The translations under genes were made by a program, and so were the position numbers. Source: Halegenticoccus soli (GTDB lineage: Archaea > Halobacteriota > Halobacteria > Halobacteriales > Haloferacaceae). Taken from it: DNA of 64,000 bases. The notes below the pieces were generated by a model that saw only the letters and a program-made list of their open reading frames with translations, was not told the origin of the DNA and made no database searches. The number at the start of each line of letters is the position of its first letter. The stretch's first letter is position 1. Shown in pieces: positions 51,696-56,097 of this stretch. Where the stretch lies: NCBI RefSeq assembly GCF_002844195.1, contig NZ_PEND01000009.1, positions 62,001 through 126,000 of the forward strand, in the 5' to 3' direction.

Positions 51696-53396
51696 ATGAC
51701 ACGAGACACCGACCCACGAGCGGACGAACGAACCGACGCCGACGGCCTCGAGAGCACCGAGCGCACGGCGCGAACCGACGGAGGCGAGGCGACCGCGGGC
51801 GCGGACTCGGTTGCCCTCGACCCGTGGGGTTCTTCGACCGTCTCGGACTACCGGAAGCTGTTCGAGGAGTTCGGCATCGAGGAGTTCGACGAGGTGCTCC
51901 CGGAGGTGCCGAACCCCCACTACCTGATGCGCCGCGGGGTCATCTTCGGCCACCGGGACTACCGTCCGGTCGTCGACGCGATGCGCGAGGGCGACGACTG
52001 CGCCGTCCTCTCGGGGTTCATGCCGACGGGCGACCCCCACATCGGTCACAAGCTCGTCTTCGACGAGATCATCTGGCACCAGGAGCGGGGCGCGGACGCC
52101 TACGGCCTCATCGCCGACCTCGAAGCGCACAGCGCCCGCGGTCTCTCCTGGGAGGAGATCGACGAGCACGCCCGCGATTACCTCCTGAGCCTCCTCGCGC
52201 TGGGGTTCGACGCCGAGGAGGGGACCCTCTACCGGCAGTCCGACAACCGCGAGCTGCAGGACCTCGCGTTCGAACTCGGCTCGAAGGCCCGCTTCTCCGA
52301 GTTCGAGGCGATCTACGGCTTCGACGGCGAGACGTCCGTCTCGCACATGCAGAGCGTCGTCACGCAGATGGCCGACATCCTCTACCCGCAGCTCGACGGG
52401 CCGAAGCCGACGGTGATCCCGGTCGGGCCGGACCAGGACCCCCACGTCCGCCTGGCGCGGGACCTCGCCGCTCGAACGCGCTTTTTCAAGGTGACGGAGG
52501 CGTACGCGAGCTTCGAGGCGGACGCGCTCGAACGCGACGTGATCGGCGAGGCGTACGCGGCGCTGTCGGCCGACGCGCCGGCGGCGTCCGATGGGGAGGG
52601 GGACGAAGCGGAGAACGGAGACGAGGACGGGACGACGGGAGGCGAGCCCGTGCGCTGCGAGGACGCCGCCGACTGGCTCGAATCGGGCGAGTTCGACCGG
52701 GCGCGCCTCGGCGTCGACGTCTCGCAGGCGGCCGTCGAGGCCGCGATCGAGAAGCTCCGCGCGGCCGGCAAGGAACCGCTCCGACCCCGCGTCCGGTTTC
52801 TCGACCGCAACGCCACCGAGGAGGCGTTCGAGGCGCTCATCGAGGCCGTCGAGGGGGAAAAGCGCGTCTTCGAGGCGCACGTCGACACGTTCGCCCTCTC
52901 GCGGGAGGAGGCGGAGGAGCTCGCTCGCGGAATCGAGATCGAACACGGCGGCTACGGCTTCGTCCCGCCCTCGTCCGTCTACCACCGGTTCATGACCGGC
53001 CTCACGGGCGGGAAGATGTCGTCGTCGGTTCCGGCGAGCCACATCAGCCTGCTCGACGACCCCGAGGACGGCTACGACAAGGTGAAGTCGGCGACGACCG
53101 GCGGCCGCGAGACGGCCGAACTCCAGCGCGAACTCGGCGGCGAGGCCGACAAGTGCCCCGTCTACGAGCTGTACGCCTACCTGCTCGCCGGGGACGACGA
53201 CGAGTTCGCGAAGACGGTGTACGACGAGTGCGTCGGCGGCGAGCGGCTCTGCGGCGACTGCAAGGAGCAGGCGGCCCGGCTGATGCGGGAGTTCCTCGAA
53301 GAGCACCGGGAAAAGCGCGCGGAAGCCGAGGAGGTCCTCGCCGAACTGGACGTCGATCTCCACTCGAACCGAAGGGGTGTGACGAGCGAGGACTGA
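51696..53396 (+). CDS. trpS: tryptophan-tRNA ligase
   Basis: Class I synthetase charging tRNA-Trp. 566 residues. HIGH motif 'PHIGHK' at 115-119 and KMSKS equivalent 'KMSSS' at 440-444. A long acidic N-terminal extension (residues 1-45) and an internal Gly/Glu/Asp insertion (about 288-312) are haloarchaeal features. It follows endA by 12 bases, so they are probably one operon; haloarchaeal tRNA-Trp needs EndA for intron removal, which may explain the pairing. Confidence 0.97.
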   Translation: MTRDTDPRADERTDADGLESTERTARTDGGEATAGADSVALDPWGSSTVSDYRKLFEEFGIEEFDEVLPEVPNPHYLMRRGVIFGHRDYRPVVDAMREGDDCAVLSGFMPTGDPHIGHKLVFDEIIWHQERGADAYGLIADLEAHSARGLSWEEIDEHARDYLLSLLALGFDAEEGTLYRQSDNRELQDLAFELGSKARFSEFEAIYGFDGETSVSHMQSVVTQMADILYPQLDGPKPTVIPVGPDQDPHVRLARDLAARTRFFKVTEAYASFEADALERDVIGEAYAALSADAPAASDGEGDEAENGDEDGTTGGEPVRCEDAADWLESGEFDRARLGVDVSQAAVEAAIEKLRAAGKEPLRPRVRFLDRNATEEAFEALIEAVEGEKRVFEAHVDTFALSREEAEELARGIEIEHGGYGFVPPSSVYHRFMTGLTGGKMSSSVPASHISLLDDPEDGYDKVKSATTGGRETAELQRELGGEADKCPVYELYAYLLAGDDDEFAKTVYDECVGGERLCGDCKEQAARLMREFLEEHREKRAEAEEVLAELDVDLHSNRRGVTSED

Positions 53397-54243: not shown

Positions 54244-54320
54244 GCGTGTCGGTTGCACGGCCTCGGACAAGAGCCTGGAGGCCGTTCTCGGGGCTGTCGA
54301 GCGTTGGCACCCATCAGAAC

Positions 54321-54328
54321 GCTTTTCT
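54321..54328 (+). promoter_or_regulatory. promoter of the pheST leader
   Basis: The T-rich element GCTTTTCT is centred about 27 bases before the ATG of the 25-codon leader ORF at 54352. This is the standard haloarchaeal distance to a leaderless start. No comparable element precedes the pheS ATG at 54592 closely, so the transcript probably begins at the leader. Confidence 0.5.
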
Positions 54329-54351: not shown

Positions 54352-54429
54352 ATGACGTCCGAACCCGACGTTGCGACGATCGCCCGCGAACCGGCCGCCA
54401 TCGGGTTCGGCTTCTTTTTCGGCGCCTGA
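54352..54429 (+). CDS. 25-residue Phe-rich leader peptide upstream of pheST
   Basis: Short ORF MTSEPDVATIAREPAAIGFG with the end FFFGA. Four of its last seven sense codons are Phe (54406-54408 and 54412-54420). It starts about 27 bases after a TATA-like element and ends 162 bases before pheS. Followed by two overlapping GC-rich hairpins (54435-54461). A Phe-rich leader before phenylalanyl-tRNA synthetase genes is exactly the arrangement of attenuation leaders such as bacterial pheM; in an archaeon this is unusual and needs experimental support. The alternative is that the ORF is chance. Confidence 0.6.
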   Translation: MTSEPDVATIAREPAAIGFGFFFGA

Positions 54430-54434
54430 TCGGC

Positions 54435-54461
54435 CGGCGGACCCCCGCCGCGGCGGCGGGG
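54435..54461 (+). promoter_or_regulatory. mutually exclusive hairpins after the leader peptide
   Basis: Hairpin A: CGGCGG (54435-54440) with CCGCCG (54445-54450). Hairpin B: CCCCGCC (54443-54449) with GGCGGGG (54455-54461). They share bases 54445-54449 and cannot both form. A ribosome waiting on the Phe codons would leave A free; one reaching the stop codon would cover its left arm and let B form. No T-run follows B, so any effect would not be a bacterial-type terminator. Confidence 0.5.
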
Positions 54462-54591
54462 CGAAACCGGTCGACTCGGCGCGGGACGGGCCCCGCGATC
54501 CCCCTCGCGGACGCGGCGGACGGCGGACCCATCCCGGAACGGCTAACTGACGGCCGCGAGCAATCCGGACAAAAGAGACCGAGGACGACGA

Positions 54592-56097
54592 ATGCGACTC
54601 CCACAATCACAGGCCGCGGTGTTAGAAACCGCGAGCGCGACGGAGGCACAGACCATCGAACGACTCGCCGAGGAGACCGGCCGGAAACCGGAGACGGTGA
54701 CGGGGGCCGTCTTCGACCTCCGCGACGAGGGGCTGGTCGCGGTCGAAGAGCGGACCGAATCGAGCGTCGACCTCACGGACGAAGGCCGGACCTACGCCGA
54801 GGAGGGGCTCCCCGAGATCCGGCTCTACCGCGCGGCGGTCGGGGCGGGGGCCGACGAGGAGCCCGTTCAGATGGGGCGCGTGATCGGCGCGTCCGGCCTG
54901 GACGGACCGCAGGTGAACATCGCGCTGTCGAACTACGCCCGGAAGGGGTACGGGCGGATCGAGAGCGGCGAGATCACGGCGGACCCCGACGCGGACCCCG
55001 ATGAGGACGCCGAGGCGGCCGCGCTCTCGGCCGTCGCGGAGGGTGAAGAAGTGACCGACGCGACGGTCCTCGAACGGCTCGACAGCCGGGGGCTCGTCGA
55101 GCGCAGCGAGCGAACCGTTCGCTCCGTGACGCTCACCGACGAGGGCGTCACGGCGCTCATGGAGGGGATCGAGGCCGCCGAGACCGTCGACCGGCTGACG
55201 CCCGAGCTGCTGACGAGCGGCGAGTGGCGCGACGTCGAGTTCACCGAGTACAACGTCGAGGCCGACGCCGCGGAGTACCGGGGCGGCAAGGTCCACATCC
55301 TCCGCCAGACCGCCGACCGCGTGAAGGACGTGCTCGTCGGCATGGGATTCAAAGAGATGGCGGGGCCGCACGCCGACGCGGACTTCTGGATCAACGACTG
55401 CCTGTTCATGCCGCAGGATCACCCGGCGCGCACCCACTGGGACCGCTTCGCCCTGGAGGTGCCGCCGATCCACGACCTCCCCGAGGCGCTCGTCGAGCGC
55501 GTGCGGACGGCGCACCTGGAGGGCGTCGGCGACGACGGCGACGGCTACCACTCGCCGTGGTCCGAGGACTTCGCCAGGGCCGTCGCGCTGCGCGGCCACA
55601 CGACGTCGCTGTCGATGCGCTACCTCTCGGGCCACGCGGTCGGCGAGCTGGAGCCCCCGCAGCGGTACTTCAGCGTCGAGAAGGTGTACCGCAACGACAC
55701 GCTCGACCCGACCCACCTGCTGGAGTTCTTCCAGATCGAGGGGTGGGTGATGGCCGAGGACCTGTCGGTCCGCGACCTGATGGGGACGTTCGAGGAGTTC
55801 TACCGTCAGTTCGGCATCACCGACCTCCGGTTCAAGCCGCACTACAACCCGTACACCGAGCCCTCGTTCGAGCTATTCGGCCGCCACCCCGAGACGGGCG
55901 AGCTTATCGAGATCGGCAACAGCGGGATGTTCCGCGAGGAGGTGCTCAGACCCCTCGGCATCGACTGCGACGTGATGGCGTGGGGGCTCGCGCTCGAACG
56001 CCTGCTGATGCTGATGTACGGCTTCGAGGACATCCGCGACGTGCACGGGACGCTCGCGGATCTCGAACTGCTCCGCGAGACGGAGGTGATCCGCTGA
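54592..56097 (+). CDS. pheS: phenylalanine-tRNA ligase alpha subunit
   Basis: Class II synthetase catalytic subunit, 501 residues, archaeal type. The N-terminus contains tandem winged-helix DNA/RNA-binding-like domains ('QAAVLETASATEAQTIERLA'). The catalytic core has motif 2 region 'TSLSMRYLSGHAVG' and motif 3 'GIDCDVMAWGLALERLLMLM'. 'GHPHADADFWIND'-like 'AGPHADADFWINDCLFMPQ' and 'TLDPTHLLEFFQIEGWVMA' are family landmarks. ATG 54592 is preceded by a GAGG that may act as a ribosome-binding site. Its stop overlaps the pheT start by one base. Confidence 0.97.
   Translation: MRLPQSQAAVLETASATEAQTIERLAEETGRKPETVTGAVFDLRDEGLVAVEERTESSVDLTDEGRTYAEEGLPEIRLYRAAVGAGADEEPVQMGRVIGASGLDGPQVNIALSNYARKGYGRIESGEITADPDADPDEDAEAAALSAVAEGEEVTDATVLERLDSRGLVERSERTVRSVTLTDEGVTALMEGIEAAETVDRLTPELLTSGEWRDVEFTEYNVEADAAEYRGGKVHILRQTADRVKDVLVGMGFKEMAGPHADADFWINDCLFMPQDHPARTHWDRFALEVPPIHDLPEALVERVRTAHLEGVGDDGDGYHSPWSEDFARAVALRGHTTSLSMRYLSGHAVGELEPPQRYFSVEKVYRNDTLDPTHLLEFFQIEGWVMAEDLSVRDLMGTFEEFYRQFGITDLRFKPHYNPYTEPSFELFGRHPETGELIEIGNSGMFREEVLRPLGIDCDVMAWGLALERLLMLMYGFEDIRDVHGTLADLELLRETEVIR

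Follow-up and report, generated by a model that had tools for sequence, protein, structure and literature searches.

Leader peptides specific to one amino acid are a classic means of gene control in bacteria. In Escherichia coli pheST is preceded by pheM, a short leader ORF in which Phe codons are clustered and ribosome stalling senses charged tRNA-Phe, and in Streptomyces the Trp-tRNA synthetase gene trpRS1 is subject to ribosome-mediated attenuation through a leader with Trp codons. No report of an archaeal amino-acid-specific leader peptide was found in the open-access literature searched. The region upstream of pheS in the haloarchaeon Halegenticoccus soli, analysed here within a stretch of 64,000 nucleotides (the window), resembles the E. 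coli system in that a short ORF with a cluster of Phe codons precedes pheST, and by analogy sensing of charged tRNA-Phe would be expected. Its anatomy is different: the haloarchaeal leader is leaderless, a long-range hairpin lies within the ORF, an irregular hairpin follows the stop codon, and neither a competing anti-terminator nor an intrinsic terminator appeared in our scans. We consider it fairly probable that this region is a haloarchaeal leader-peptide regulator, in which codon-specific sensing would act on some output at the level of transcription.

The leader ORF and its transcript

In the window the leader ORF runs from 54352 to 54429 on the plus strand, as given by translation and by comparison with relatives, and has 25 codons (MTSEPDVATIAREPAAIGFGFFFGA, then the stop); Phe is specified by codons 19, 21, 22 and 23, that is by four of the final seven. 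A stretch of 162 nt separates the leader stop from the ATG of pheS (54592–56097, plus strand, assigned from its ORF and from relatives), which encodes the alpha subunit of phenylalanyl-tRNA synthetase, is followed by pheT and would be the controlled gene in the model proposed below. Coordinates, codon count, Phe count and the length of the intervening stretch had all been given correctly in a sequence-only reading of this DNA. That reading also placed the ORF at leaderless distance from a TATA-like element, which agrees with our comparison: the BRE/TATA-like element CAGAACGCTTTTC (54315–54327, plus strand) has its TTTT about 28 nt upstream of the leader ATG, and an AACG(C/T)TTTT-like box lies at equal distance upstream of the leader in nearly all relatives. 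The sequence, the retention of the box and dRNA-seq of Haloferax volcanii mark this element as the putative leader promoter, and the leader transcript is expected to start at or adjoining the leader ATG.

Transcript data for H. volcanii were published by Babski et al. 2016, whose Table 2 lists a uORF of 26 aa (2772 Da, pI 5.9) in the 150–250-nt 5′-UTR of pheS (HVO_2948) and another of 23 aa upstream of a tryptophan-tRNA ligase gene, HVO_A0127 (PMC4983044). The words 'leader peptide' and 'attenuat' are absent from that article, and codon content, RNA structure and conservation are not discussed in its uORF section (PMC4983044). Phe leaders of Haloferax relatives are mostly 26 aa long, with five computed variants of 2792–2850 Da and pI 5.9 or lower; given this agreement in length, mass and pI, the pheS uORF of H. 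volcanii is very likely the Phe leader. Transcription beginning at pheS itself, which the earlier reading had named as evidence against control through the leader, is not what dRNA-seq found in H. volcanii, where the start lies at the uORF and there is no additional start at pheS (PMC4983044).

Closer to the gene, about 48 nt upstream of pheS in the window, lies another conserved element, CCGGAACGGCTAACTGA (54534–54550, plus strand), a candidate second, proximal promoter. Across loci the element, CGGAAN4TAAC, is found 28–73 nt upstream of pheS, and it is kept even where the leader is absent. It resembles a weak core promoter, and a conserved promoter-like element at this place could bypass the Phe leader; the start-site listing for H. 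volcanii contains no start at it (PMC4983044).

Conservation of the Phe leader and its two hairpins

We compared 80 haloarchaeal pheS loci with the window (81 loci together). In most of the 80 the corresponding position holds an ORF that fits M-x-[SPT]-[EG]-[PS]...GFGFFF-x(1-3)-stop and is preceded, at leaderless distance, by a TATA-like box. A covariance model of this ORF and two hairpins, R1, was built on 59 leader loci; its seeds were selected as ORFs, and the R1 search itself imposes no reading frame. Matches lie directly upstream of pheS in 70 of the 81 loci, the window included, the unit being absent from the other 11, and they occur in 233 of 292 haloarchaeal genomes and 69 of 78 genera, nearly always once per genome. 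Such numbers place the Phe leader beyond chance. Searching the phylum's other classes with R1 gave no convincing match. The window's own genome has a single true copy, the remaining matches being at chance level or the palindrome on the opposite strand, and second matches in two genomes (G227 and G259) were discarded as extra copies, being weak or palindromic.

The first hairpin, P1, lies within the ORF and pairs codons 3–6 (arm 1, CCGAACCCGA, 54359–54368, plus strand) with the Gly-Phe-Gly codons immediately upstream of the Phe run (arm 2, TCGGGTTCGG, 54401–54410, plus strand). The distance between its arms ranges from 52 to 121 nt, with eight different values, and equals 1 modulo 3 in 69 of 70 matches, so that the frame is kept in all except one MAG; stop-to-GAAA distances, on the other side of the stop, spread evenly modulo 3 (25/23/22). 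The peptide drifts in its central part. Its Phe run, placed after arm 2, is retained in 69 of 70 R1 matches, with three Phe in 45 leaders, two in 23, four in one and none in one. A conserved Phe-rich ORF whose other residues drift, which the sequence-only reading had proposed to look for, is thus found across haloarchaea by alignment, by R1 matches and by frame, and the conserved ends of the peptide are accounted for by P1 and the Phe run. In the MAG locus L025 (2811–2955) P1, P2 and the T-rich tract are present and a one-base frame change, either an assembly error or decay, removes the Phe codons. The P1 loop is enlarged in frame (97–101 nt) in L061 (2719–2926), L066 (2723–2926) and L071 (2720–2927), with frame, P1 and Phe run retained.

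The second hairpin, P2, is irregular and lies directly 3′ of the leader stop in the window (54430–54474, plus strand), its start being 0–11 nt downstream of the stop in most loci. In the window an outer stem (54430–54437 with 54467–54474) is followed by the internal loop CGGAC/CGAAA and an inner stem from 54443 to 54461; among relatives the stems vary around an internal loop 5′-YGGAN/NGAAA, in which GGA and AAA are invariant in 59 of 59. Over P1 and P2 together 88.1% of cells are paired, 233 are double-change cells and 19 of 23 pairs show double changes, a result reached by none of 500 shuffles. Compensation in P1 is seen among relatives, for example, in the arm pairs CCGAACCC/GGGTTCGG, CCGAATCC/GGATTCGG, CTCGAACGCG/CGCGTTCGAG and CCGGACCCG/CGGGTCCGG. 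RNAalifold recovers both hairpins unprompted, and in all-against-all column covariation the ten top-scoring pairs of the whole alignment all fall within them. MFE folding also yields P1 and P2, yet they are no more stable than shuffles, and the case for the structure therefore rests on covariation. We also considered P2 as a kink-turn and abandoned this, its internal loop being symmetric, with no 3-nt bulge.

Since P1 is an inverted repeat and the leader ORF is conserved, one might think of a DNA-level operator or of a functional micropeptide instead of an RNA/ribosome switch. We regard both as extremely improbable. An operator is hard to reconcile with arm spacing that varies so widely and with the asymmetry of mismatches, G-U pairs outnumbering A-C by 70 to 26 cells over P1 and P2 (23:8 in P1; 21:11 and 26:7 in P2), which argues for plus-strand RNA rather than a DNA repeat. 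Drift in the middle of the peptide, with ends explained otherwise, speaks against a micropeptide.

A cluster of cognate codons in a leader ORF before a synthetase gene, just as in pheM-pheST, would also suit classical attenuation of the pheM/trp type with mutually exclusive anti-terminator and terminator hairpins. However, P1 and P2 do not overlap and both can exist together, no competing or alternative helix emerged from the all-against-all covariation scan of the alignment, and a scan for bacterial-type promoter and terminator patterns from leader to gene gave no promoter, no hairpin-plus-T-run and no intrinsic terminator, so that this mechanism appears very improbable. The sequence-only reading had supposed that haloarchaea may sense charged tRNA-Phe in the same way as pheM: the sensing is supported by the conserved ORF and by the Trp leader described below, whereas the 'same way' is not, because neither a mutually exclusive hairpin nor an intrinsic terminator turned up in these scans.

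It is also conceivable that P2 does the sensing as a site for a protein or ligand (e.g. PheRS, a ribosomal protein or tRNA), the ORF being accessory. A purine internal loop that is invariant amid variable stems is typical of a recognition motif; P2-only matches in the window's genome are nevertheless at chance level, an Rfam scan of the leader region returned chance-level matches alone, with no family and no T-box, and Trp leaders have cognate codons with no evident P2 of this type. Sensing by P2 is in our opinion decidedly unlikely. The leader can be likened to a T-box riboswitch in that, by analogy, a synthetase gene would be placed under amino-acid supply, and a UGGA-like sequence occurs in a P2 strand of some species. 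The T-box was rejected for want of an Rfam match and since the position in question holds C rather than U in 41 of 59 loci; unlike in a T-box, the haloarchaeal codons are carried by an ORF and there is no specifier loop.

Another possibility is that the leader is read and the ribosome stalls as we propose, with translation or decay of a long pheS mRNA as the output, for instance through P2 or re-initiation. A long 5′-UTR is published for H. volcanii pheS (PMC4983044), and a terminating ribosome would touch a P2 that begins so near the stop. The distance from leader to pheS, however, is very variable (93–245 nt), which speaks against translational or stability control, and conserved pairing with the pheS start region was found for neither P1 nor P2; we hold this output to be rather unlikely.

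The Phe codons themselves have a second property. In the window the Phe-Phe-Phe codons TTC TTT TTC (54412–54420, plus strand) double as a T5C tract, and T5C lies within the Phe codons of 33 of 70 leaders. Among Phe codons, TTT makes up 66 of 185 in the run that follows arm 2, 2 of 70 ahead of that run and 56 of 1302 in pheS of the same loci. A T run of at least four is found in 46 of 70 Phe tails; with the codon usage of pheS 5.0 would be expected, and 2000 simulations gave 13 at most. As the TTT excess is seen at all three Phe positions, the third being as frequent as the first two, slow wobble decoding and U-richness are inseparable here. No T run longer than two occurs in the Phe tail of 16 of 70 leaders, so that not every leader can depend on a U-tract. 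In H. volcanii reporters T5C acts as a terminator in vivo, with 95% termination (PMC7237163), and aCPSF1/FttA binds U-tracts in Methanococcus (PMC8716108).

A tryptophan leader before trpS genes

The uORF of HVO_A0127 in H. volcanii was the lead for a search for trpS leaders. Plasmid-borne trpS genes of Haloferax mediterranei, Haloferax larsenii and Natronorubrum aibiense are preceded by a leaderless 23-aa ORF, MVSTS..CWRW..EVDS.AV and then the stop, and the HVO_A0127 uORF is very probably such a Trp leader. Leaders with WRW or WW were found upstream of related trpS genes in 27 of the 30 genomes of this search, including the window's own, whose second trpS (L208) has the Trp leader MSAPGTPWRWRELLPGADSPADDRVAA ending at a stop. 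Their P1 is formed by GTCCGCTCCC with GGGAGCGGAC and variants (93.3% of cells paired, 28 double-change cells, no shuffle as high), the Trp codons lie within its loop, and a P2 of the Phe-leader type is not evident. A covariance model of the Trp leader, R2, finds it in 113 of the 292 genomes, representing 43 of the 78 genera, and the leaders precede two kinds of TrpRS gene. As in Streptomyces trpRS1, a Trp-codon leader stands before the gene; unlike that bacterial attenuator, the haloarchaeal one is leaderless and its P1 pairs codons 2–6 with later codons. A Trp-rich leader with its own covarying hairpin before trpS genes is new here.

No comparable conserved leader ORF was found before hisS, pheA, trpC, tyrS or leuS, the last represented by 12 loci only. 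That the codon should match the enzyme in each of two separate cases is difficult to account for other than by charged-tRNA sensing, and the Trp leader before Trp-tRNA synthetase genes is independent support for codon-specific sensing by the ribosome at Phe (or Trp) codons, a proposal we consider highly probable.

Several further features of these loci should be mentioned. Downstream of the Trp leader GCTCACTC is retained almost without change, and after it comes a pyrimidine tract such as TTTCTC or TTCTTC (alignment A3, columns 116–150; L186–L214), possibly a termination or processing site. The trpS of the window (51696–53396) begins a few bases after a neighbour gene and lacks a Trp leader; one is present before trpS genes of its type in L282, L283, L284 and L286. 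In L282 the order is tandem: Trp leader (MSASDGWRWRWQFPEADSLASPAAR, then the stop), trpS of the window's type, Phe leader and pheS. The P1 arms of Phe and Trp leaders are alike (UCCGnnCCC with GGGnnCGG), as are the peptide starts MxSEP and MxSAP, and a common origin of the two leaders is possible.

A possible mechanism and its meaning

The comparison shows a conserved frame, the Phe and Trp codons, P1, P2 and the association with the gene, to which the published start upstream of the uORF in H. volcanii is added; stalling, the direction of control, termination as the output and the role of P2 we infer. Arm 2 ends 16 nt before the leader stop in 40 of 70 matches (range 10–25, with one frame-changed exception). 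With the trailing edge of a ribosome taken to lie about 12–15 nt upstream of the codon in its P site, arm 2 should be held while the ribosome is in the FFF run and freed when it is at the stop. In the proposed model transcription would start at the leader AUG, and a ribosome would load on the leaderless 5′ end and translate some 25 codons. Scarcity of charged tRNA-Phe would make this ribosome stall in the FFF run, holding arm 2 so that P1 stays open and covering the pyrimidine/U-rich tract formed by the Phe codons. With an ample supply of Phe, the ribosome would reach the stop and leave, P1 would re-form behind it and the U-tract would be exposed, which would favour premature termination, most likely via FttA/aCPSF1. 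PheST output would consequently rise when Phe-tRNA is short, and the Trp-codon version would serve Trp-tRNA synthetases.

Links between ribosome and RNA polymerase are described in H. volcanii (PMC8576121), and it has been proposed that ribosome and FttA compete for the elongation complex (PMC11616081). That the output is U-tract/FttA termination is a possibility that we place somewhat short of even. More tentative still is the idea of a haloarchaeal class of leaderless leader-peptide attenuators, for Phe and Trp synthetases at least, in which a pioneer ribosome and a hairpin closing itself across the ORF would act together with a U-tract read by FttA/aCPSF1 in place of an intrinsic terminator, the Phe sensor codons being at the same time the termination tract.

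The Phe and Trp leaders suggest that archaea, like bacteria, sense amino-acid supply by a stalling ribosome. If this is true, archaea couple translation to gene output via codon-specific ribosome stalling, and the two leaders would provide, in the genetically tractable Haloferax, a natural system for testing transcription-translation coupling and FttA-dependent termination.
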